Assembly (NCBI GenBank): GCA_025331445.1
Contig: JAIWNE010000030.1
Location: 1 to 64,000, forward strand
Source of the DNA: Blakeslea trispora
Lineage: Eukaryota > Mucoromycota > Mucoromycetes > Mucorales > Choanephoraceae
Direction of reading: 5' to 3'
DNA length: 64,000 nt
Below, one piece after another: positions 4,641 through 57,115 of the stretch. The notes beneath the pieces are model-generated. The model made no database searches and had not been told where the DNA came from. It saw only the letters and a list, made by a program, of their open reading frames with translations. Positions within the stretch are counted from its first letter, which is position 1, and each line of letters opens with the position of its first letter. Both the position numbers and the translations under genes were made by a program.

Positions 4641-4959
4641 GTATTTCTACATAGATAAGAGATGTTGTTCAAAGGCAATTAAGCATTAAGAGATTAGAGC
4701 ATTTCTAGTGACCAACGATAAGTTTGGCGCGACAAAAAGGCGACTTAAGAAATCTTTCATCAACCAACATGTTGCCGAAGCAAAGGCAGAAAATGCGGTT
4801 AATGCCGTCAGAGCCATGCTTTGTTTTTCATATAAATATACCAAATAAATTTAAACCCCTTTGTTCCCCATATCTTGGAAAGCAAGTATAGTATTAGAAT
4901 TCAACTCATTTTTTTTGGGGGGTGGGGCACTATCAAAACAGTTTTCTTAAACGAGTGAG

Positions 4960-5596
4960 CCATGATTCTTAGATGGAATTTACCACAGTTTCTGCCTCCA
5001 CTTTGGCAACATGTTGATTGCTTGTCGTACCTAAAACAATGTCACTCGGCTTCGCTCCAACTTCCAATGTGGCTAGATTTTTTGTCAAGAAATGGAATTG
5101 GTGATACGAGTTTCCAAGGCCAGAGGTGTTGTCGATTTGTAATAAAACTTCTCATAAGTTTGTGGATCTGGCCTCAAACTCCAATATGTTGGTAATTGGA
5201 TATTTTGCCTGCTGACAAATATGTCTATGGTTAATGGGCCCCATCGCTTCCTGATGGTCTGGAAAAATTGTTTTAGAATTGTGCTTTGGTACAGCAGTTT
5301 CTTGATTCTTGAAAGCTGTCCGCTTCTACATTGTTGATTCCCTTGACATGTTGGTAGATGATCTGTAAGTTGTATCTGTTGCAAGTCTCTTGGACTTGTA
5401 CTGCAATGTCTTGTAAATATATCGACGCTATTCCCTCTGCTTTGGTGTGATACTTGATCAGTGTCATGTTGTCCGTCAGAATCTTGACGATAGAGTTTCT
5501 AAAGTTTTCTGCACTCTTATATTGAGCATACTCATAAATACAAGTTTGTGACTTCTTTTTTAAATCAGTCATTTTAAGTAACTGCTCTACTTTCAC
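4960..5596 (-). mobile_element. DIRS/tyrosine-recombinase-type retroelement remnant (RNase H region)
   Basis: Two overlapping minus-strand frames (5273-5596 and 5085-5384) carry ILTDNMTLIKYHTKAEG, then YQHVKGINNVEADSF, then RKRWGPLTIDIFVSRQNIQ and LPTYWSLRPDP. The order DN..., NxEAD, then LxIDxFxSRxNxQLPxYWSxxPDP is that of the RNase H and following domain of DIRS-like retroelements as known from fungi and animals. The change of frame near 5300 shows decay. No reverse transcriptase core, recombinase or terminal repeat is seen nearby, so only a fragment remains. Confidence 0.6.
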
Positions 5597-5781
5597 TTTG
5601 AAGTTTTGTCAATGCAGTTCGAAAAACCAATAATAATAGAAAAAAAAAAAGTGAGGGGGTGGATTTGGGACCAGCCGAGAAACAAAAAAAAAAAAAGCTT
5701 GAAATACGCGCTTTCTATTAATTTTTTCTTTTGAACAACAGAACATTTTTTCGTTACTCTTCTAACGTTCATGAACTATAT

Positions 5782-8700
5782 ATGCCATTACTCAACAAGA
5801 AAAGAGCACCACTGACACCACCTATTCCATACGACCCAAAAAAGAAACGCAAAGAGATCTGGTACCTGCGGTTTACAAACGAGATGTTCACTAGTTACGA
5901 GTAAATAACAGAAACAACATAAAGAGCCACACACCTATACATTGATTATCTCTTTTTATTGTTAGGTCCTATATTAAGAAATTAAATCTATACCATCAAG
6001 CTATATGGGAATGTGAGGCTACTGGACGAAGAAATTTAACATATGAACAAGCACTTGAAAGTGAAAGAGCAGAGCATGATAAAGCTGAATACAAATTCTG
6101 TCAGGCTCTAAGGAAGCAAATGTTGAACCGAGTTCAATTCCGTAAATAACCCTGATGATTTTTCTCTCTCTTCTTTTATTTCGAACTGACAATATCGTTA
6201 TTTAGAAACTGTTCGATTGGATGAATTAGTGGATGATGTTTATTACTATTTCGATCAAAACTATGTCATGGATGAAATCGTACACTGCAGAATGAATGGC
6301 TACACGTAAGATAGTCACCACTCACATTGATTGATTTCACCCTCTCTGACAAGATATAAAAACAAAACAAAAAAGCTATGTAGCTAGAATTGTTGATCTT
6401 TTACCTGGTAGAGTAGTTGTTCAACTAGAGAATCGAACGGACCAATCAACTCCACCCAATTCAGAAACTCAGAACACACCTAGAGACGAATCAGAAGATA
6501 ATGCAACAATTCCTAGACAACCCAATGGTAGATTACGATTTCCTGATGCCTTTCTTCATCCAACTCCACAGTCACCCCATGTTCAGCAGGAATCGAGCGA
6601 ACCAGCAGAGAACCACATGGTGGAAGAAAGACAGTATAAGGTTCAACTACTGAATGAAGTGGGCCAACCCTTGGAAGACTGTAGGCGTATTGTTTTAGAG
6701 CATCAGCTAGATAGAGATAGGCATGTGTTTAATCGAATGAACGTACAGAGCTTTATTCGTGAATGTGCCTATAAAGAAGCTTATTTCAACGCACCATGGT
6801 TGATCAAGGTAAGAAAAACATGATGGATGCTTGCTTCTTAGTTTTTGTTAAATGATAGCTATCAACTAATCATTTGTTTTACTCCCTATAGCCTTCTTTA
6901 GCGGTCACATATGGCATAGATACCACTTTACCTCATCACTTACAGCATTTACATGACCAATTTTGTCCACAATCTTCAAGGAAACGTAAAATGACACCCT
7001 TCAAAACAGCAGTAGAAAGGGAAGCCGAGAAAAGAGCCCGAAGACAAGAATCTTTGCTACAGAAAGCAAAGTTAAAAGAAGAAAAAGATCGTCTTCGCGA
7101 AGAGCGAAGAAAACAAGCAGCCATCAAATACCCCATTGAGGATCTCGACCTCCCTATCTACCGTAAAGACCCCAATCTAAATTGGGCTTTGGTTGATATG
7201 CATCCTCAAAAATATGATGCTAAAGAAGGTAGCATCATTCCATACCCCAGCGGAGGCAGATCTGAACGCCCTAAACCACACCATGACTTCCCTATACCGC
7301 CTGATCTATTTGATATCTTCCTCTCTATCTGGGCTTTTTTGACTGTCTTTTCAGAGCCCTTGAAGTTAACAGCCTATAGCATTGACGATTTCGAGCGTGC
7401 TCTTTTCCATGATACACATCAACCAAAAGCCACTGTACTTGTTGAATACAACGCATGCCTACTGAATGTGATAATTAGCGAACGCAAAGAAGATACAGCG
7501 AATGAGTTGATCAATGGTGAACTGATGGAAGCTTATGTAGAATCTCTCGAGGAAGACATGGAAGAAAACGAAAACGAGGAAGATGAAGAGGAAGCAACAG
7601 AGAACGAGACGGAAAAGCAACGGAATACCAGAAAAAGATCATTGCGTGAAGGATCTACACAATCTAGCGTTGGGCAACAAAAAAAACCTTCTGTGTTACC
7701 TCGGGTAGAACGGGGTTGGCGTGACAAAGAACATTTAAAGTTCGCTCAAAAATGGGATCATAAAGAATTACGCGCCAACTATGATCGTCGTGGTTGGGAG
7801 ACAACATTGATTGGTTGTCTAAATGATGTAGCCACACCTGAAATATTACCCAATGTAGATGAACTCTTACAGCACTTGGTGCCCAAGATGAGTTCTTCAG
7901 CTGCTGACAGAGAGAAGCAATACCCAACACTTAGTGTCAAACAAAAGCTAGATATTTTGAGTTTCTTGATCGATGTGGTCAATGAATCTACTTTGATAAA
8001 GTAAGTCTTATCTGTCTGTCTTGGCTTATCTAATCAGCTTGAGTCTAGGAACTATATGGACTATTGTCAAGATCAACTATCCGAATTCCGAAAGCAAAAA
8101 GTTGAGCTCAACAAAGAATCCAAGATATTGTAAGAAGGAGTATGAATGATATTCTTTTAGTTTTCTTAACACTTCTCTGTCTGCCTTTTTCTAGAGCTAT
8201 TAAGCGTAGCGAAATGGATAAACGAGATAAAGCCGAGAAATTTGAAGAACTAAGTGAAGAAGAGCAATCAGAGGGTGATGACTCCAGTTCTTCAGAACAT
8301 TCAGAAGACGAAGAAGAAGGAGATTTAGAGAGTGATTCGTAAGTCTCAAAGTCTCTTAACTACATCAAAAGACTCATCTTAAAGGATTTTACCATATAGC
8401 TCTGATACTAGGCTTGCTAATCGTGAAAAACGACATCAATCAAGACAAGAAAAATTACGGCAGAAACAGCTTGAGCGAGAAGAACAAGAAAAACAGCGCA
8501 AAAGACAATATGCTGAGCAAAGAGAAGTTGCAAAGGCAAAAAATCACGAACAACGTATCAAAGCGAATGAAAGACGTAAATTAGAGGAAGAAGAACGTAA
8601 TTTGAAGAAGAAGGTGAGTTTGACTATTGCGATTAGAACAACCTTTTTTTTTTTTTACTAAATACTAGCTCTATAGGAGGAAAATATAGAACGATCGATG

Positions 8701-38714: not shown

Positions 38715-40065
38715 GAAAAAAGCCAATTTCTTTCTTTGCCTGTTACGCTTAAAATGCTCAAAATGCCCAAAATGCCCAAAATCGCTGCTTGGGCGTGGTG
38801 ATGGTGATGTTTGCCTTGTTTGTATTGAAGATATAACCCTAAATGTTTTTTCTTCTCTTCAATGGATATCATTGTTTGCTCTTTTCTGTTTCTTTTTATC
38901 TATATTAAACTCTGTATCTGAAGACAAAGGTAAAAAAAAAAAGATGGAGAAAAGTGTTCTATATCAACAAGAAAGGAAAGGAAAGGAATGGGTTTATTGG
39001 CATATTTTTTGTTTCTTGTTGTTGGCATAGATGTTCTTGTACATTTCAAAGGATGGGAAGGGGGTTGACAGAGGAGAAGAGGAGGGATTTGGCTTACAGA
39101 ATTGTTCATAGATGTGCATAATGTTAAAAATCGAGTTCAATTGTGAGGGGAATGTCTTCAAGTCGGAGTAAAAGAAGGGAAGGGTGATGGTTTCAATATG
39201 GTTCATAAGGAAGACATTCTTTGCTTTGGTCATAATATAAAACTTGAGTTGCTTTCCAACAACATGAAAGCACACAACAGCATCAACACCACCACTACTC
39301 AAGATTTGGCGTCCAAAGACACCCAAACGAAGCACGTCCCACTCAACACCGACCTTGCTTGTGCCCGAAGGCTTCACTTCACCGACAACGTTTTTTTGGG
39401 CGCCCTTGACTTCAACAAGGTAATCTGGGCGGCAGTTCTTCAAGATTTCATCGTCTTTATCAAAGACCAAATTTGATCTACAAGGAAAAAATGCGTAAGT
39501 TTTTTTTTTCTGAACAAATTAAAACGGGCAACCAAGACTTACGCATAGGCATCATGGTCTTTGCTTATTTTGAACATAGCCTTCATCAGGCTATGAACAA
39601 ACGATGTCTGAAGCTGCATTTCTCCTATCTTCTTTTCTTTGGCAACCAACTCATCAGCACTAGGTAGTGAAAGAGATAGAAGAGTGTCAGTCAGAAATAA
39701 CAAATGGTTAATTCTTATATGTACTTACAGACAAGTAACAAGGCTGATCAATCTCTTGACTGCAGGGTTTGTTTGGTTCAACCTCATTTTGCTCAGCTTG
39801 TCTTTAAATTCTTCTAGGTCCTCGAAACGATCATCCTCAAAGTCCTGTGGATAGAGACGATATCAGCTGTAAAGAAAAGAGATCAAAAGAAGACAATGTA
39901 TACTTACAGAGATCACATCTTCCAATTCTGCTTTGACACAAGAAGGAAAACGCTTGGGAGGCCCCCAGATCTTCTTCTTGTATCTCTTGTTAATTTTAGA
40001 CAAGATGTCGGCGCTGATGTAGTTGTCATAGGCTGAATCAACTACCAAATTAATTTTTACGACAT
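38715..40065 (-). repeat. Left arm of 1.35-kb inverted duplication
   Basis: Matches 53207-54548 in reverse orientation, through exons, introns and 3' flank, with only scattered differences by eye (for example one His/Leu codon change and one extra aaaatgccc unit at 38757-38780). Likeness stops at 38715 and about 40065. Because introns are shared, this is a DNA-level duplication and not a retrocopy. Confidence 0.92.
38994..40065 (-). pseudogene. 5'-truncated copy of the PD-(D/E)XK-like gene
   Basis: Corresponds to exons 3 (part) to 6 of the gene at 52876-54278. Exon 6 (39477-38994) is open and encodes the same RPDYLV and GEVKP motifs with the same stop. Exons 1 and 2 are missing: at about 40065 the likeness ends inside exon 3, and a Tc1-like transposase fragment on the other strand begins at once. 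An upstream open frame starting at 40174 is the antisense of that fragment and is not a replacement N-terminus. Probably not expressed as a working protein. See the entry for the complete copy for domain details. Confidence 0.8.
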
Positions 40066-40355: not shown

Positions 40356-40530
40356 TCCGCTTCTCTCATTATTTCCGAGGACTGCAAAGGATGGATTAGA
40401 CATTCTTTTCCTTTTTTTTTTTGCCAGATGTATCCGTGAAGAAGAGATGCTCTAAATAAATTCAATCACAAAAAGAAGCTGCTTTTGTTGCATTTGACTA
40501 CTGTCTTGATTTTATTTATTGAAAGCCTAT

Positions 40531-40744
40531 AGAGATATATTCAAAAAGTTTCACCCTGAAATTTATCTGTGATTGATAGCCATTCTACAAGAAATAGACC
40601 TGCATGAATCAGGATGTCATAATATGCTTGGAAAAAAAAAAGAGCTTTCTAGCCATGAGATCCTGATTCATGCAGGTCTATTTCTTGTAGAATGGCTATC
40701 AATCACAGATAAATTTCAGGGTGAAACTTTTTGAAGATATCTTT
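40531..40744. mobile_element. Foldback element (MITE-like), copy 1
   Basis: Two arms of about 85 bp (40531-40615 and 40660-40744) are near-perfect inverted copies around a 44-bp loop. The outer end is agagatatattcaaaaagtt. It is almost the same sequence and length as the copy at 51821-52033, including the loop. No open frame of note. A transcript would form a long hairpin. Confidence 0.92.
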
Positions 40745-41621
40745 AATATACCTTAGCAAAATTAACGATACCTAAAAACGAAATCTATGGTGCACACTTC
40801 CGAAATCAATAATAGAGACTTTTGGGAGAAAAACTCAATGGCCTTAGGTTACTCCATAAGAAAATAACTCTGCAAAAAGTTACATTATCTAAACAGTTCT
40901 ATTGGGTGAAATTCGGTTCCGACTAGCAAGAATGAGCAAACAATGAATAAATATCAGGATGTAAAAAGGAAGAGTGAGGTCATTGTGCTATCTCAATTCA
41001 ACTAATAATGACACAATAGAATCAAATGACTAAGGCCCACATTGCTACCAACCCAGATCTTGATATTTTGTATGATAAATCAAACCATTGACCATTCAAT
41101 TTCTTTAATGGTGTATCACATATTCCTTACAAAAAAATAAATAATGAGTATCAAAATGAAGCAAAAGAGAAAAGTGCATTTGCGTTACGGAATAAATGTG
41201 CTTATTGTAGAGCATTTGATTGTTTTAGTGTCTTTATTAATGACTGATTGAAATGCTCCCTTACAACACCTACTGTTCAAATGCTTCTCTCGAGTGAGAT
41301 ATAGTCTAGTGAATTGCATGAAATACTCTACAGATTATAGCCTTGATATATTGTAGTATCGCAGAACACAGTCATGAATTATGCTACTTACATTAACCTC
41401 ATGTACTTAATAGAAACATTCTCCTTTAAATATCAATAAATGAGCCAAAATACACAACAAACTAAGCTCAAATCATCATCAATCCTGCCTAGAAGTATTC
41501 TAATAATTATTGAGTAAAAACATTGCGTTTCTGTATTGGTTTTATTGCTTTCATAGCCAAGTATTCCAACGTAAATGTAAACTGCTTCAGGGCTGAAAAC
41601 TGATTGCTCAATTCATTTAAA
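40745..41621. other. AT-rich spacer, no gene seen
   Basis: Short open frames only, no recognisable repeat or RNA gene. Confidence 0.55.
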
Positions 41622-41639: not shown

Positions 41640-42345
41640 TTTTTTTAGGGGAACAAGTCCAGTTTTATTTAAAGTCCTTTAAATGTCAGAAGAGGGAAGA
41701 AAAAGACTGGATATATAAAATTTAAAAAAAAAAGCAATAAGGAGGCGAGGGAAACTATTAGTGATCTAAATGTAGCGTTGACTGTCCAGGAAATGTAGGT
41801 GGCTATTGATAGTATTCAAGGTAGCGGTAGGAGAGAAGGGCTTGTTTTCGAAGACAGAGTGCCAGTGCGTTTGCCAGATACCCAAAAGGGTACAGGCAAA
41901 GATCTGTTCCTGTGAGAGGGAGGAGAGCGGAAGAGAGAGATCACGAATGCGTGTGACAGGGAGGAAGCGGTAAATACAATGAAGGAGACGAGGGACATCA
42001 GAGGGGACAAAGCGGATGAAAGGAGGGATGTAGGTGGTGAGGACGGTCAACCAGATCGAGGCCTTAGCCGGACAGAGGAACAGGAAATGATCGATAGTAT
42101 CGTCAGAGGCAGAGCAAATGGGGCAGAGAGGAGATGGGAACGAGGACGGAATTAATTGATGGAGTAATGAGCGACAGAGAATCTTTCGATGAAGGAGGCG
42201 GTACCAAACCGTCCGAGCTTGCAACGGGATAGCTAGAGACCAAAAGGTTTTCCAAGTAGGGGTGGCAAGTATCGAAGGTTGGAGGGGAATGCGAGAACGA
42301 GTGAGAAACTTATAAGAGCGGATAGAGGAAGGTGGATGCCGAAAG
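41640..42345 (-). mobile_element. 5'-truncated LINE copy 1 (3' end only)
   Basis: 699 bp plus an A-tail of 7 are the same as 48942-49640. The frame 41766-42345 encodes the LINE ORF2 C-terminus with the CPICSASDDTIDHFLFLC zinc motif. The flanks are 11-bp target duplications: tatgtcatgtc at 41629-41639 and tatgccatgtc at 42346-42356 (one mismatch). This marks a target-primed insertion into the end of the DDE element. Confidence 0.9.
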
Positions 42346-48932: not shown

Positions 48933-50904
48933 CTTTTTTTTAGGGGAACAAGTCCAGTTTTATTTAAAGTCCTTTAAATGTCAGAAGAGGGAAGAAAAAG
49001 ACTGGATATATAAAATTTAAAAAAAAAAGCAATAAGGAGGCGAGGGAAACTATTAGTGATCTAAATGTAGCGTTGACTGTCCAGGAAATGTAGGTGGCTA
49101 TTGATAGTATTCAAGGTAGCGGTAGGAGAGAAGGGCTTGTTTTCGAAGACAGAGTGCCAGTGCGTTTGCCAGATACCCAAAAGGGTACAGGCAAAGATCT
49201 GTTCCTGTGAGAGGGAGGAGAGCGGAAGAGAGAGATCACGAATGCGTGTGACAGGGAGGAAGCGGTAAATACAATGAAGGAGACGAGGGACATCAGAGGG
49301 GACAAAGCGGATGAAAGGAGGGATGTAGGTGGTGAGGACGGTCAACCAGATCGAGGCCTTAGCCGGACAGAGGAACAGGAAATGATCGATAGTATCGTCA
49401 GAGGCAGAGCAAATGGGGCAGAGAGGAGATGGGAACGAGGACGGAATTAATTGATGGAGTAATGAGCGACAGAGAATCTTTCGATGAAGGAGGCGGTACC
49501 AAACCGTCCGAGCTTGCAACGGGATAGCTAGAGACCAAAAGGTTTTCCAAGTAGGGGTGGCAAGTATCGAAGGTTGGAGGGGAATGCGAGAACGAGTGAG
49601 AAACTTATAAGAGCGGATAGAGGAAGGTGGATGCCGAAAGGAAGATGGGAGGCTGGTGAAGGAGGTAATGAAAGGAGAAAGACAAGAGGAAGAGGAAGGC
49701 GGTTGAGCAGTGCGGGGGGCTGGTTGCCGATTGTGTTGAAGGAAAGGAAGGAAGGAATTGGAGCCAGTAAGGATGGATCGTAAGGCCTGATGAGCTAGAG
49801 TTGGATGTCTAGATTGGTGAAATGGAGGTTGGCGAAGTTCTAATTGAAGGGTGATCGAATCGAAGTAGAAGAGGTCGGAGCAGAGTAACGGTGTCAGGTT
49901 GGGTGTGCGAATTGTAGCCACTGGGGCGGTGGAGAGGTGTGAAGAGGAAATTACCGCATTCAGAGGAAGTGACAGGCAAGTGAAGGGGTCAATGTAACAA
50001 GAGTCAAAGGATTTTGGAATGGCGTCAATAACCTGAACCAGAGAGGAAAGGATGTTGAGGAGCGAATAGGAGCTAGAAGGACGGTGAGGGAAGTAGTGGG
50101 GTTGGCGACAAGAAGGAAAGAGGAGAAAATATTGGGGACTAGGAGATGTGGGGGAATGGTAAAACCATGCGAAGGTGTAACGAAGAAAGGAAGCGGTGGC
50201 TAAAAGGTTGGACGAAGGGGTAGAGAGAAGGAGATTAGAAGCCCAGCGCCATCGAAGAGCTCGTTGTTGAGAGATGAGATTCATGACTTGTAAGCCGCCT
50301 AATTTGCGGGGAAGCTAGATGGTATATAAGGAAAGAGGCGGGAAAATATGATGATTAATGAAACGTGTGCCAATACTTGAAAGTCGCTGTAGCTGCTGTT
50401 GTGTAAATGTGGTGAATCGTAAAACATGCCACAGTTTGGAGAAAATGAGTGTGTTGAGGACAGTAGCGCGGCCCCGAATGGAGAGGTTACGTTGTGAATG
50501 AATGTGACAGGCGGAGGTATTGGAAGCTTCAAGCTTTTCAAATGCGATGGATCGTTGTTTTATACTGGATATGATGGGAAAGCCGAGGTAAGTGGAGGGG
50601 GAAGGCGAGGTGCGTTCGTGCCAGGAGAGGATGTTATGTTGGGCGAGCAGATGTTGCCATTGGGGAAGGAGGAACGTGTGTGGGTGGCGATTGCTTGTGT
50701 GAGGTGGAGAGAGAGGCCATGATCGGCGATGAATCTTTTCGGCATAAATCCTAATTGATGAGAGCTGATATTGGTACTTAGATGGGTCATCAGTCGGGTA
50801 TTTAGCAGGCGAATGAATGTTTTGGCATCTGTATTGATCATTGAGATAGGTCTCAATGGATTTACTCGACATATATGGAAGATAAAAAATCGACGAATAT
50901 GGTA
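48933..50904 (-). mobile_element. Truncated and internally deleted LINE, copy 2
   Basis: The A-tail (8 bases) is at 48934-48941. On the minus strand the order is: RPISMINTDAKTFIRLLNTR and SSHQLGFMPKRFIADHGLSL (start of the reverse transcriptase domain, 50922-50720), then in another frame LLPQWQHLLAQHNILSWHER, STYLGFPI and SIRGRATVLNTLIFSKLWHV (post-palm region), then a 407-codon frame (50284-49061) ending with the CPICSASDDTIDHFLFLC zinc motif. The palm with its catalytic FADD-type motif is missing, as is the endonuclease, so the copy cannot move by itself. A possible imperfect target duplication is aatggattcact (48921) and aatggcattcacc (50905). Confidence 0.85.
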
Positions 50905-50934: not shown

Positions 50935-51820
50935 GACATGGTAATTTTTTAAGCAGGGAATCTTCCTATATCTTAGTAGTAGTATAGTAGTAATGGTAGT
51001 TAAGAGATCAACTTGATGATTGATTCTTACTAGAAATGCCATCGTGCACTTTGACTTAGTTGGAAGACACAAATAGCGTGATTTGGTCATTTTGATACAA
51101 AGCCATATGTGTTTACCAAGAAAGCTCTAGGTAATGAATGTTTTTAAAGATAGAGTAGTTTTTCGGTTTTAGAGCTTTTGTTTGTATATGAAACCATACG
51201 TGATTATGTCCTCAACGACAAAATTGTTCTCATCCATTTGAGGAGAGAGAGAGATGATTTCAGGCTAAGTGATGTGTCTGTTTGATTTCATCTACTCAAT
51301 ACGCATCCAACAAGATATTTCTATCTCTGCTTAAGTATGGGCTATCTTGTGGCTTCTACATCGCCTGCTGTATCCTTTCTTTCTTTCTTTTTCTTTTATC
51401 AGTGTTAACAGTGCTCCGCACCAGTTGCTATACGGAACATAAACCCTAAGACACAGCCGTCAGTTGCGACCGACATGTACTCTTTATATTACTGCAAGCG
51501 CAGACAGTCATCTCTTAAACGGTCAATAGAGTCAAACTTATAACTAGTTTTGACAAAATCATTAGATATCTCAAACAAAGAGCTGATAAGCGACATCCCA
51601 TCCGGAGCACTTTCCGAATAAAACAGTTTGACAATGGGATTAAACAGTTATAAGTACACCTGTTATGCAACACTATCTTTTCTCCTATTTTCTCTTGCTT
51701 TCATGTGAAACACTCAATCAGCTAGGAAAACTTGGGACTAAAATCTATGATGTGTCTTCAATTTTAGGAAGACAATTACTTGGCTCTTGGTTACTTGTTA
51801 CAGAAGGGGCTTGAAGAGAT
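50935..51820. other. No gene seen
   Basis: Spacer between the LINE and foldback copy 2, with short low-complexity stretches (TTTC at 51375-51400, GAGA at 51241-51252). Confidence 0.5.
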
Positions 51821-52033
51821 GGAGATATTTTCAAAAAGTTTCACCCTGAAATTTACCTGTGATTGATAGCCATTCTACAAGAAATAGACCTGCATGAATC
51901 AGGATATCATAGTATGCTTAGGAAGAAAAAGAGCTTTCTAGCCATGAGATCCTGATTCATGCAGGTCTATTTCTTGTAGAATGGCTATCAATCACAGGTA
52001 AATTTCAGGGTGAAACTTTTTGAAAATATCTCT
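51821..52033. mobile_element. Foldback element (MITE-like), copy 2
   Basis: Arms 51821-51905 and 51949-52033 pair over 85 bp around a 43-bp loop. Ends read ggagatattttcaaaaagtt. Arms and loop are nearly the same as copy 1 (40531-40744): the few differences are compensated in both arms (tttatctg against tttacctg, with atcacagat against atcacaggt), so each hairpin stays paired. Confidence 0.93.
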
Positions 52034-52875
52034 ATGTAATAATCTCCTTTATTCATTCCTTTTTACTTACGATAAATAAAACATCTGAAACAATAGATTG
52101 GCCATATGCATTTGTCGCTTATATAATATCGCATTAATTATACGAGTATTGCATAACTAAATGGCCTTCATCTACCATTCTGAGGTTACACCCACTCTTA
52201 ATGTTTCATGACAATCTACTGTACTGCCTAATCTATAACGCCAAATGACAAAAGTCACAGAAGAACGGAAGAGCAACAGATCACGAAAACAAGAGCTAAC
52301 AGCAGAAAGAAGAAAGAGTAGCAGATCATGATAATACAAAGCAGCGACAAAAAGAAGACAGTGATATTTCATTCAAACGCATTCTTTATTGCTGACCTGT
52401 TTCCATAGCTTCCAGCATCATGACAATATTCATACACAGTCGACAAGAAATAAATCCATTCCGATAAATATTCGCAGTCTAGGTAGTAAACTATTTTTTT
52501 CGTCTTTTCTTTTTGATCTGTTCATTCTATTATTCATTGATTTCATTTACTGCTAATTTTAAATTTGTTACTACTACGCTATACACTGTTTTATTATGTC
52601 TACAGTAAGATGTTGTCTATTATCGCATAAATTATTTTTGTCTATATGTCAAAGAATATTCTAATCTATTTTTTTTTTTGATAGCTTGATTGCTCAGAAA
52701 AAACAACAGTAAGTTCTTAATCGCGTTTTGTTTTCTAAAGAAACAGATTTGGCTAATTTGCACTTTCATCTAGTCTATAACGTAAATATTGAAGATATAA
52801 AAAAGGATAGCTCTTGACATGTATTTATCTTAACCTTTTGTTTCTCCCTTCAGTATTGCTTCATCTTCAAAGCGA
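52034..52875. promoter_or_regulatory. Upstream region of the complete PD-(D/E)XK-like gene
   Basis: No gene seen. It should hold the promoter of the gene that starts at 52876; AT-rich stretches occur but no site can be fixed. Confidence 0.4.
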
Positions 52876-54278
52876 ATGTTCTCCCAAACATTCAAAAAGT
52901 AAATGTTACACTGAAAGAAAAACATTGTGTAACAGATTAAACTCATGTAATTTGATAGACTGAATGAATTTAAGTTGCCTGAGCTTACTGGAGCTCCATT
53001 TGTAGCCGATCATGTTGATGTCAGCGCTTGCTTGAAGAAAATGAAAGAAGAAGCTTATAACCAATTGAAGAATGATGAGTACCGTGACTACTGTACTCAA
53101 ATGCCCAAGGACATTGCCAAGCTCTTGTATGTGGCGTCTTATCCATCATTAGTTGCATTAAACCTACCTCACAATACTAATTTCTTTTTTGATAGGGCGT
53201 TGGCAGATGTCATAAAAATTGATTTGGTAGTTGATTCAGCCTATGACAACTACATCATCGCCGACATCTTATCTAAAATTAACAAGAGATACAAGAAGAA
53301 GATCTGGGGGCCTCCCAAGCGTTTTCCTTCTTGTGTCAAAGCAGAATTGGAAGATGTGATCTCTGTAAGTATACATTGTCTTCTTTTGATCTCTTTTCTT
53401 TACAGCTGATATCGTCTCTATCCACAGGACTTTGAGGATGATCGTTTCGAGGACCTAGAAGAATTTAAAGACAAGCTGAGCAAAATGAGGTTGAACCAAA
53501 CAAACCCTGCAGTCAAGAGATTGATCAGCCTTGTTACTTGTCTGTAAGTACATATAAGAATTAACCATTTGTTATTTCTGACTGACACTCTTCTATCTCT
53601 TTCACTACCTAGTGCTGATGAGTTGGTTGCCAAAGAAAAGAAGATAGGAGAGATGCAGCTTCAGACATCGTTTGTTCATAGCCTGATGAAGGCTATGTTC
53701 AAAATAAGCAAAGACCATGATGCCTATGCGTAAGTCTTGGTTGCCCGTTTTAATTTGTTCAGAAAAAAAAAACTTACGCATTTTTTCCTTGTAGATCAAA
53801 TTTGGTCTTTGATAAAGACGATGAAATCTTGAAGAACTGCCGCCCAGATTACCTTGTTGAAGTCAAGGGCGCCCAAAAAAACGTTGTCGGTGAAGTGAAG
53901 CCTTCGGGCACAAGCAAGGTCGGTGTTGAGTGGGACGTGCTTCGTTTGGGTGTCTTTGGACGCCAAATCTTGAGTAGTGGTGGTGTTGATGCTGTTGTGT
54001 GCTTTCATGTTGTTGGAAAGCAACTCAAGTTTTATATTATGACCAAAGCAAAGAATGTCTTCCTTATGAACCATATTGAAACCATCACCCTTCCCTTCTT
54101 TTACTCCGACTTGAAGACATTCCCCTCACAATTGAACTCGATTTTTAACATTATGCACATCTATGAACAATTCTGTAAGCCAAATCCCTCCTCTTCTCCT
54201 CTGTCAACCCCCTTCCCATCCTTTGAAATGTACAAGAACATCTATGCCAACAACAAGAAACAAAAAATATGCCAATAA
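52876..54278 (+). CDS. Complete multi-exon gene with PD-(D/E)XK-like motif, unknown function
   Basis: Six exons close in phase: 52876-52898, 52959-53126, 53196-53364, 53428-53543, 53613-53729 and 53795-54278, giving 358 codons. Donors are GTAAAT, GTATGT, GTAAGT, GTAAGT, GTAAGT. The start is ATG 52876 (MFSQTFKKLNEFKLPELTG). No signal peptide or membrane helix. The N-terminal half is helical and charged (KKMKEEAYNQLKNDEYRDY; NKRYKKKIWGPPKRFPSC). The C-terminal half has RPDYLVEVKG (Asp216) and VVGEVKPSG (Glu231, Lys233), the spacing of a PD-(D/E)XK nuclease core, then GVFGRQILSSGGVDAVVCFH and VVGKQLKFYIMTK. A possible extra intron begins GTAAGC after EQFC, which would change the last 25 residues. 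Relation to restriction-like or Crinkler-type nucleases is inference. Confidence 0.75.
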
Positions 54279-54548
54279 ACCCATTCCTTTCCTTTCCTTT
54301 CTTGTTGATATAGAACACTTTTCTCCATCTTTTTTTTTTTACCTTTGTCTTCAGATACAGAGTTTAATATAGATAAAAAGAAACAGAAAAGAGCAAACAA
54401 TGATATCCATTGAAGAGAAGAAAAAACATTTAGGGTTATATCTTCAATACAAACAAGGCAAACATCACCATCACCACGCCCAAGCAGCGATTTTGGGCAT
54501 TTTGAGCATTTTGAGCGTAACAGGCAAAGAAAAAATTGGCTTTTTTTT
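53207..54548 (+). repeat. Right arm of the inverted duplication
   Basis: Reverse-complement partner of 38715-40065. It includes exons 3-6, their introns and about 270 bp of 3' flank. Exons 1-2 lie outside the arm and exist only here. Confidence 0.92.
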
Positions 54549-55840
54549 ATTCTTTTAGCTCCTACTACAACACTTTTTGTCTTAGAGTGATGAAAAGTCA
54601 TCCCAATCTGACTTGAATATAGTGAACAGCATTTTACGTACACGCTGACTGAGCTTCTCTTTCTTTTTAGCAACCTTTTTAAGCACTTACTATTCACTTT
54701 TCTATTAGCTTTAACTTTTATCTATTCGACTATGTTCATCAATAAATTCTTGAGTTCATTCTGGACTATCAAACTTTCTTTGAGTTTTTCCATGACAAGG
54801 CTTGAACAGCCTTCTAAGCTTCATATAAAGATGTATGACCAAATCCGTTACAAGTAAAACCAATAAGATACTTTCAAGAGGAATCAATACTTGTAGCATC
54901 GCTTATTCGAATAGTCTTAAAAGATTGTATCATTATACCAGTTTAAAGTTGAAGGAGCTTCTTTGTAGTTACAGCTAATTTTCTGAGCATTTCTTCTTTG
55001 CAGGTACACTACAATTAAAGAATAATTGAACACGCTTCAACATATGTTTCTACCGCAATATTAAAATTGTAGACCTATATATGAACTAGCTTAACAAGAA
55101 TACTGTAACTTGAGCTCTATATCCAAGAATATGGTTAAAACAGATACTTCATAATGTAAAGCTCAGTAGCTAGCCGAGAATTACCAATTTAGTCCATAAT
55201 CTTGCTTCAAGATCTTACATTAAAAGCTCCATTTCCTTTAAGATGACACAGTTGACCTTTTAACTTGGTTATCTGATACTACTGCCTATATGTTTTCAAT
55301 GAGACAGAGTATAGTTTATTTGACATGCAGAAGCTTTTACACCACCAAATCTTTACGATAGCTATCAAGCAGTAAAGGATAATACAAACATTTCTAAAGT
55401 GTTAATTTTTGATATCAAGTGCAACTTATGAAAAAGAAACTGCATAGAACTAGGGGTGTCTTCTTTTTGAAACGCTTCTTGACCTCAATAACCAGAATGC
55501 CACAAAAATACCGAATAACAGCAGATACCTAGCGCTTTACACTTCTTCTTGACAGTGCCTTATTCTTCATCATTAAAAAATGATAGATAGCAAAAGTTGG
55601 TGTAACCATATAATACTTTTTTTAATCCATTGAATGTTAGAAAAAGTGAATCAAACAAACAGTTCAGCTTCCTTCAATCAGCTATATTCCACAGTGCGAA
55701 ATGAGGTTTAGAATAGAATCTAAATCAAGAATTTATTAGTGTACCCTTAAAGTTCCGCACGATTTACTAAAACAAATTCCGTCAAATTTATTCTTTTCCT
55801 TTGTTTATTTTTATTTCTTCTTACTCATCAATAAAAAAAA
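54549..55840. other. Intergenic, no gene seen
   Basis: About 1.3 kb of AT-rich DNA with short open frames only. Holds the promoter of the trimethyllysine dioxygenase gene; no site defined. Confidence 0.6.
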
Positions 55841-57115
55841 ATGCAAAGCACCTTTGGTAGACGGATACTTGCAAGCTCGAGGCAAATCAATAGAGCTTTT
55901 ATATCTACATCGTCTTCATGTTTACATAAGCCAAATGCCCGCAAGCAATTGCAAGGCACAGGTGCAGTACCTCAAAGAGCTGGTCTCGCAAATGACAAGG
56001 AAGTCTATCTTGACTGGAATGCACGAAAAACAAGCTTATTCAGTCACTTTTGGTTGAGAGATCACTGTCGTTGTAAAGATTGTTATCATCCTGTCACACG
56101 TCAACGTCTTGTTGACACCTTTTCAATTCCTCGAGATATTCAACCGACAGCCATTGATAGTGCCGAGGAAGGATTATCTGTCACATGGGCTGACGGGCAT
56201 CAATCAACTTACGCTTGGGATTGGTTGCACACGCACTCTTACAGCCCTATACTTCGTACTTCTCCGCCCTTGGTACACAAACGACCCAAGCTATGGGATG
56301 CCCAATTGCAGCTGACGCCTATCGATCATGACGCAGTAATGGAGACAGATGATGGTCTGAGGCAATGGCTGGATCAGTTAGAAATCTATGGCATCTCTTT
56401 TATTGAAGGCTGTCCTACTACTGTAGAAGCCACTGAAAAACTGGCCCGACGTCTCTGCTTCTTACGCGAGACGCATTATTCTCAAGGCATTTGGTCCTTC
56501 ACAGCTGATTTGGCTCATGCGGATACAGCCTATACTCAATTAGCATTGGGAGCTCACACGGATAACACTTATTTCACAGAGCCTGCAGGTTTACAAATGT
56601 TTCACAAGCTAGAGTTTGAAGGTAAGGGTGGAGATTCATTGTTTGTGGATGGCTTTGAAGTTGCCAAGCAGTTAAAAGAGAAATCGCCCAATGCATACCG
56701 TACATTATCGAATACACGCATACCTACACACTCAGCTGGTGATGAACATGTTCTCGTTGTGCCTACTCCTCGTGCTTTTCCTATTTTGAATCACGGACCT
56801 GACGGTGAACTCTATCAGATTCGCTACAACAACGACGACAGATCAACATTGGATCATCTGAGCTCAACGCAGTTGGAGGAGTTCTATGATGCTTTGTTCT
56901 TGTGGAATGACTTGCTAAAGTCTAAGAGTAATGAGCTCTGGGATACACTTGCTCCAGGACGCGTTGTCACATTTGACAACTGGCGTGTTTTGCATGGTCG
57001 CAGTGCCTTTTCGGGTCACCGTCGTATTTGCGGCGCTTACTTTCCTTGGGATGATTACAAGAGCCGAGCTAGAACACTTAGAATGACATCCCAGGATAAG
57101 GATCGTCTTTTGTAA
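55841..57115 (+). CDS. Trimethyllysine dioxygenase (carnitine biosynthesis)
   Basis: Single exon, 424 codons, ATG 55841. It is an Fe(II)/2-oxoglutarate oxygenase that hydroxylates N6-trimethyllysine, the first step of carnitine synthesis. Residues 1-35 are basic with few acids and suggest mitochondrial targeting. The N-terminal zinc region reads WLRDHCRCKDCYHPVTRQR (Cys76, Cys78, Cys81). The catalytic domain has the iron ligands in GAHTDNTYF (His239, Asp241) and RVLHGRSAF (His385), and the 2-oxoglutarate Arg in GHRRICGAY (Arg394 or 395). LYQIRYNNDDR is typical of TMLH. Gamma-butyrobetaine dioxygenase is the close alternative; YFTEPAGLQMFHKL and the NNDDR segment favour TMLH, but the two are easily confused. 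The family is certain. Confidence 0.87.
   Translation: MQSTFGRRILASSRQINRAFISTSSSCLHKPNARKQLQGTGAVPQRAGLANDKEVYLDWNARKTSLFSHFWLRDHCRCKDCYHPVTRQRLVDTFSIPRDIQPTAIDSAEEGLSVTWADGHQSTYAWDWLHTHSYSPILRTSPPLVHKRPKLWDAQLQLTPIDHDAVMETDDGLRQWLDQLEIYGISFIEGCPTTVEATEKLARRLCFLRETHYSQGIWSFTADLAHADTAYTQLALGAHTDNTYFTEPAGLQMFHKLEFEGKGGDSLFVDGFEVAKQLKEKSPNAYRTLSNTRIPTHSAGDEHVLVVPTPRAFPILNHGPDGELYQIRYNNDDRSTLDHLSSTQLEEFYDALFLWNDLLKSKSNELWDTLAPGRVVTFDNWRVLHGRSAFSGHRRICGAYFPWDDYKSRARTLRMTSQDKDRLL

Follow-up and report, generated by a model that had tools for sequence, protein, structure and literature searches.

Among the described systems closest to the gene family presented here are a fungal spore killer, a group of effectors, and two ribosomal proteins. 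According to PMC9972908, Spok1 kills in a nuclease-dependent manner, through DNA damage. In the fungus Rhizophagus irregularis, Crinkler (CRN) proteins bear REase domains (PMC6131194), and mL37 and mL65 are described in PMC8998825 as repurposed endonucleases. The window analysed here, a stretch of 64,000 nucleotides on contig C210 of the 37.2-Mb assembly of Blakeslea trispora (Mucorales, Choanephoraceae), contains two copies of a gene whose product lacks the Crinkler motifs and, by Pfam, the kinase-like resistance domain of Spok proteins. We put at about 0.6 the probability that its family consists of nuclear PD-(D/E)XK DNA endonucleases engaged in genome conflict. The window gene would encode a nuclear, metal-dependent endonuclease whose catalytic core is preceded by an N-terminal helical region and followed by a basic tail. 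Of the core residues, Glu172 would lie on the first helix, whereas two adjacent strands would carry Asp216, Glu231, and Lys233 or have them at their side. Such a protein would cut nucleic acid, probably DNA, in conflicts within the genome or against invading DNA, and the family would spread by segmental, notably inverted, duplication in transposon-rich DNA, with a fast turnover. A role in host defence is conceivable.

The first-pass annotation, made from the DNA letters, joined six exons in phase into 358 codons. The splice check agrees, as the exons add up to 1077 nt (358 codons and the stop) and all five introns (60, 69, 63, 69, and 65 nt) are GT-AG. The introns are T-rich, with a GC content of 32% vs 41% in exons. 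P0001, the spliced NCBI protein encoded by the C12 paralog, is 97% identical over 81% of the window protein and has the same join points at introns 3–5. In paralogs C57, C235, C222, and C113, a GT-AG joiner run on open frames supplied by the analyst gives intron phases 2, 0, 2, and 2, as in window introns 2–5. The joined C57 product equals NCBI protein P0007 across all 287 residues of the latter; hence an independent gene call bears out one of the four joiner-built models. Support for exon 1 was sought among the relatives and none was found: the ENA protein P0006 (60% identity, covering 42% of the window protein), the only one beginning there, has Met at window Leu9. The dN/dS ratio is 0.28 between the window gene and C113 (352 codons) and 0.21 between C8 and C235a; four comparisons were saturated, and recent copies gave 0.57 and 0.19. 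The equal intron phases and the ratios of 0.28 and 0.21 indicate that the family proteins are, or formerly were, under selection. Close downstream of the gene, at 55835-57115, there is a 426-codon open frame whose translation presumably is that of a carnitine-pathway (gamma-butyrobetaine-type) dioxygenase.

Table. Features of the window, and inverted pairs of family genes elsewhere in the assembly.
Feature	Position in window	Strand	Arm length	Arm identity	Remarks
Exon 1	52876..52898	+			8 codons, MFSQTFKK; weakest portion of gene model
Exon 2	52959..53126	+			N-terminal helical region begins here; matched by P0006 and C113 paralog
Exon 3	53196..53364	+			N-terminal helical region; boundaries backed by C12 and C113 paralogs
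Exon 4	53428..53543	+			Boundaries backed by C12 and C113 paralogs
Exon 5	53613..53729	+			Encodes Glu172 of first core helix
Exon 6	53795..54278	+			PD-(D/E)XK core (RPD 214-216, GEVK 230-233, D245), stop included
Right arm of inverted duplication	53207..54546	+			Begins shortly after the start of exon 3 and extends 268 bp beyond stop
Left arm, second gene copy	38716..40065	-			Lacks exons 1-2; from self-comparison of window
Foldback (palindromic) short element, 217 bp	51819..52035				Upstream of window gene; DNA fold z = -26
Second foldback copy	40529..40745				Upstream of left gene copy
C113 pair			1.9 kb	99.9%	
C272 pair			palindrome of 4.6 kb	99.4%	Palindrome, no spacer
C222 pair			4.4 kb	99.7%	
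C57 pair			at least 1.7 kb	99.7%	Inward-facing
C232 pair			2.1 kb	99.9%	
C242 pair			1.6 kb	99.8%	
C157 pair			at least 3.2 kb	99.8%	Inward-facing
C74 pair			3.4 kb	99.97%	

RPDYLV starts at residue 214 and GEVK at residue 230, so that Asp216, Glu231, and Lys233 stand where they had first been read. The conservation of these residues was assessed on a core alignment of 22 paralogs, drawn from the ~65 loci after collapsing duplicates, the counts being of rows with a letter. Asp216 is kept in 21/21, Glu231 and Lys233 in 20/21 each, and the helix residue Glu172 in 19/21; Gly230 and Asn227 are present in 22/22 and Asp245 in 21/22. The PD-(D/E)XK-like core of the first-pass annotation thus has its three named residues, and Glu172, conserved across divergent paralogs. 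The exceptions are scattered: Glu231 is Lys in C113, Lys233 is Met in C13, position 172 is Gly in P0008, C1 lacks the Asp, and C137 lacks the GExK stretch. This pattern would fit a nuclease family having some dying copies. With the motif kept and with signs of selection, the members are probably active nucleases. Several subfamilies have basic C-terminal tails, in the window gene encoded by exon 6 (NNKKQK), and these suggest a nuclear site.

AlphaFold models of two relatives, P0001 and P0004, are of low-to-medium confidence. The P0004 model (pLDDT 64.6) has a helix at 183–199, strands at 205–211, 228–234, and 239–249, a helix at 255–276, and a strand at 280–287; RPD immediately precedes strand 2 and GELK closes strand 3. 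This is the helix-strand-strand-strand-helix-strand order of the PD-(D/E)XK core, the motif being placed, as in that fold, at the second and third strands. In the P0001 model the first two strands are unformed or of low confidence. Both models nevertheless show the expected order, helix-strands-helix-strands, despite an identity of 20% between the two subfamilies. Foldseek, which had been proposed as a check, returned no match reaching E 0.001 for either model, and nothing below E 0.001 against viral models, but a second-look alignment placed restriction enzymes among the neighbours. Its top neighbours, for which the N-terminal helical region was covered too, are mitoribosomal chains 5 and s, listed by entry name and taken here to be mL37 and mL65. 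The ranking also includes DrdV, BpuSI, the DUF820-type 3ot2, the Holliday-junction resolvases 1ob8 and 2eo0, and other nucleases. As no Foldseek match reached E 0.001, the fold call rests on the motif, the topology, and the second-look alignment; a PD-(D/E)XK fold for the family is supported by prediction. Neither a confident match to an unrelated fold nor a lack of conservation of Asp216, Glu231, and Lys233 among the homologues was encountered.

The family is large within the genome. Queried with the C-terminal 160 residues and with P0008, the assembly gave 62 and 103 matches (75/75 and 119/121 candidates scored), and the two lists, merged by hand, amount to ~65 loci. Identity to the C-terminal query ranges from 100% down to 23%; that of full products to the window protein is 45% for C113 and 29% for C57, and core identity is 25–36% in paralogs and 55% in C113. 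Some genes are intron-rich (C57, C113, C222, and C235), and others consist of a single frame that reaches 488 codons (C218 and C272). In a set of 5.8 billion proteins, the matches listed include at least nine members, the nearest named ones being 'hypothetical protein BD560DRAFT_...' of B. trispora. Outside Blakeslea, the matches listed comprise P0005 and P0009 of Choanephora cucurbitarum, both partial, and a short ENA contig (P0006); so far, and among these matches, the family is thus seen in Choanephoraceae and in one ENA sequence. Pfam assigned no family to the window protein, to nine members, to 15 cores, or to six other proteins and protein pieces, nor did NCBIfam, PADLOC, PHROGs, or PDB sequence searches assign one, and no description was found in the literature searched. 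Judged by that literature the family is undescribed, and its members in the protein search carry hypothetical-protein names. It adds to the PD-(D/E)XK fold a group without detectable sequence kin in the searched libraries. Transposases and reverse transcriptases are present at several family loci, and the earlier description of a nuclease-like family living among transposons holds. Some family members (L033 765-1412, L022 3257-3646, L029, and L013) are extended at the N-terminus by a region in which they share a motif near PSFxxFI; this region was not seen in the window gene and has no Pfam match of weight. Contig C224 contains five family matches within ~50.7-94 kb, two of them 14.4 kb apart and flanked on either side by a foldback element; match L031 of this contig has a frame change within the core.

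Self-comparison of the window places its two gene copies, the second of which the first-pass annotation had not mentioned, on the arms of an inverted duplication. The arms have 98.8% identity over 1350 bp, and a stretch of 1310 nt scored as 100% complementary. The DNA upstream of the left copy is common to C12 and C137, and in all three the homology with the right copy ends at one identical point. The two window copies are 100% identical over 1310 nt and either is 97% identical to C12; being closer to each other than to C12, the arms appear to have been made alike recently, probably through gene conversion between the inverted copies or through late duplication. Within the spacer between the copies, a 706-nt sequence is directly repeated with 100% identity, at 41640-42345 and 48935-49640. 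The latter repeat overlaps a 417-codon minus-strand frame that, judged by its translation, we take to be the tail of a non-LTR reverse transcriptase.

With this one, the inverted pairs found in the family number nine, all of them near-identical. All but the C272 palindrome have spacers, of 0.6 to 13 kb, and arms differ by at most 1.2%, with variable ends. Seven pairs face outward; in these, the outer arm end lies 268, 43, 593, 2290, 1510, 39, and 186 bp beyond the stop, the ends of C113 and C242 (43 and 39 bp) being alike. Pairs were counted by hand as matches on opposite strands, at most 20 kb apart, whose bit scores agree in one search or more; this excludes the C58 and C68 nuclease pairs, 32-33 kb apart. 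In the nuclease family, the 65 loci make 56 units and include 9 pairs. Among the control matches listed, the DDE_3 transposases have 5 pairs in 145 units (odds ratio 5.4, p 0.0035), RVT_1 has 1 in 149 (odds ratio 28, p 4e-5), and kinases 0 in 122. Sequence comparison was used to check the nuclease pairs, whereas control pairs were judged from place and score alone; the control lists comprise the best 150 typed loci, or 122 scored, vs a nearly whole nuclease list. The single RVT_1 pair flanks the C157 nuclease pair. With a looser rule (1% in score), RVT_1 has 4 pairs in 146 units among the matches listed (odds ratio 6.8, p 0.0016), the added ones (C245, C10, and C271) having matches that differ in length or score. 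Pairs are present in DDE_3 and RVT_1 too, hence inverted duplication is not peculiar to the nuclease family; nonetheless, among the control matches listed, all three compared families have fewer inverted pairs for their size, the rate in the nuclease family being about five times that of the DDE_3 transposases. Contig C2 (L028) shows the reverse of the usual layout, in which the gene sits within the arms: there, a family gene lies in the loop between 1.3-kb inverted arms (99.9%) at 1488-2809 and 4891-6213.

The family gene might belong to a mobile element, either serving it or moving as its cargo; the first-pass annotation had also proposed the cargo option. Near-identical gene-bearing segments of ~3-3.5 kb do occur on the separate contigs C218, C272, and C37, with a minus-strand transposase-like frame within the segment (read in C272 only), and the number of short foldback elements close to family genes exceeds expectation. 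The ends of arms and segments, however, vary from copy to copy: the segments of the C218/C272/C37 group end differently, and the outer arm ends of the seven outward pairs, 39-2290 bp past the stop, are not the constant ends of an autonomous DNA transposon and lend the cargo option no support. Because the arm ends differ, we also rejected a reading of the arms as the terminal repeats of a single element. We regard the mobile-element reading as unlikely. In C137 (L012 3309-4650), a DDE_3-bearing element with 50-bp inverted ends is inserted inside the gene copy, and an element 97.9% like it lies beside the C8 paralog.

The 217-bp foldback element has near-perfect inverted arms and apparent TA-type ends. 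Two probes gave 167 and 171 candidate copies, the best 40 of each being scored. With the first, 15 of the best 40 copies have a family locus at a distance of at most 3.5 kb, where 0.49 would be expected, and 12 of these 15 are upstream of it; 2/40 are near DDE_3 and 2/40 near RVT_1 (~1.2 expected each; best 40 of 167). The second found 22 further copies among the best 40 of 171, and the only one near the family is the probe itself, which speaks against a mobile element. Several of the 15 family-near copies are segmental duplicates; with duplicates collapsed and probes dropped, ~7/53 copies are near the family, with 0.65 expected (best 40 per probe). The C272 palindrome is centred on a foldback element (L015 4943-5159, centre 5051). 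As it is the only pair so centred, foldback elements were rejected as the cause of all inverted pairs: both elements of the window spacer are off centre, and none was found in the C113, C57, C232, C242, and C157 stretches or in the C74 self-comparison; of the C222 spacer, a part was read.

The structural neighbours raise the alternative of a non-catalytic relative, in which the fold would bind RNA or DNA without cutting, as in mL37 and mL65 of the animal mitoribosome. Pure binding would not need the motif residues, yet no fewer than 19 of 21 paralogs retain them. The Pfam profile PDCD9 (PF07147), presumably that of the mL37/mL65 family, is silent in the Blakeslea genome, though equally so in all 14 control genomes. 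This alternative seems rather improbable. We judge with similar scepticism a selfish killer of the Spok type, i.e., a nuclease toxin favouring its own transmission: the nuclease-dependent killing by Spok1 would suit it, as would the many copies and fast evolution of the family and the transposases and reverse transcriptases present at several of its loci, but Pfam found no second, kinase-like resistance domain, and no partner gene came to notice.

The inverted pairs themselves could be assembly artefacts, as mirror-image reads are a known long-read error, seven of the nine pairs exceed 99.7% identity, and the C272 palindrome has no spacer. Against this stand the spacers of the other eight pairs, the arm divergence of up to 1.2%, the variable ends, the differing gene halves beyond the arms of the window pair, and the low counts in kinases (0) and RVT_1 (one) among the matches listed; an artefact is very improbable. 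A more specific version of the endonuclease reading holds that the protein cuts hairpin or cruciform DNA and that repair into inverted duplications multiplies its own genes, with no transposase. It is suggested by the nine inverted pairs, the C272 palindrome centred on a foldback, the resolvases among the structural neighbours, and the roughly tenfold foldback enrichment near the family with duplicates collapsed, to which the second probe added only itself; we consider it a long shot. With the excess of inverted pairs, a tie between a gene family and the formation of palindromes becomes accessible to testing in a Mucorales genome. A Crinkler effector with a REase-type C-terminus, the other option of the first-pass annotation, is hardly credible, as a pattern search of the 358-residue protein found no LFLAK, HVLxxP, or DWL, its N-terminus is neither hydrophobic nor secretion-like, and the Pfam rows contain no CRN match, even if such domains are on record in CRN proteins of a fungus.

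The nuclear PD-(D/E)XK endonuclease reading can finally be set against the known systems. Crinkler REase effectors share with the Blakeslea family a REase-type C-terminal domain, a fungal host, and multiple copies, and differ by their LFLAK/DWL header and HVLxxP. Spok spore killers are likewise fungal and multi-copy with a nuclease-type domain; they carry the resistance domain in the same protein, whereas Pfam shows none in the Blakeslea family. Membership among the Spok proteins fails on this domain; a killer role through another layout would be conceivable. DrdV and BpuSI, type IIG enzymes with N-terminal nuclease domains, have 7-13% identity with the Blakeslea proteins and gave no sequence match in the PDB search; unlike them, the window protein has no methylase or specificity domain in its 358 residues. 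Identity with mL37 and mL65 is 6-11%, and the Blakeslea proteins, unlike these, retain the catalytic-type residues. If this likeness reflects real descent, they would be living, motif-complete relatives of the enzyme that animals made into ribosomal proteins.
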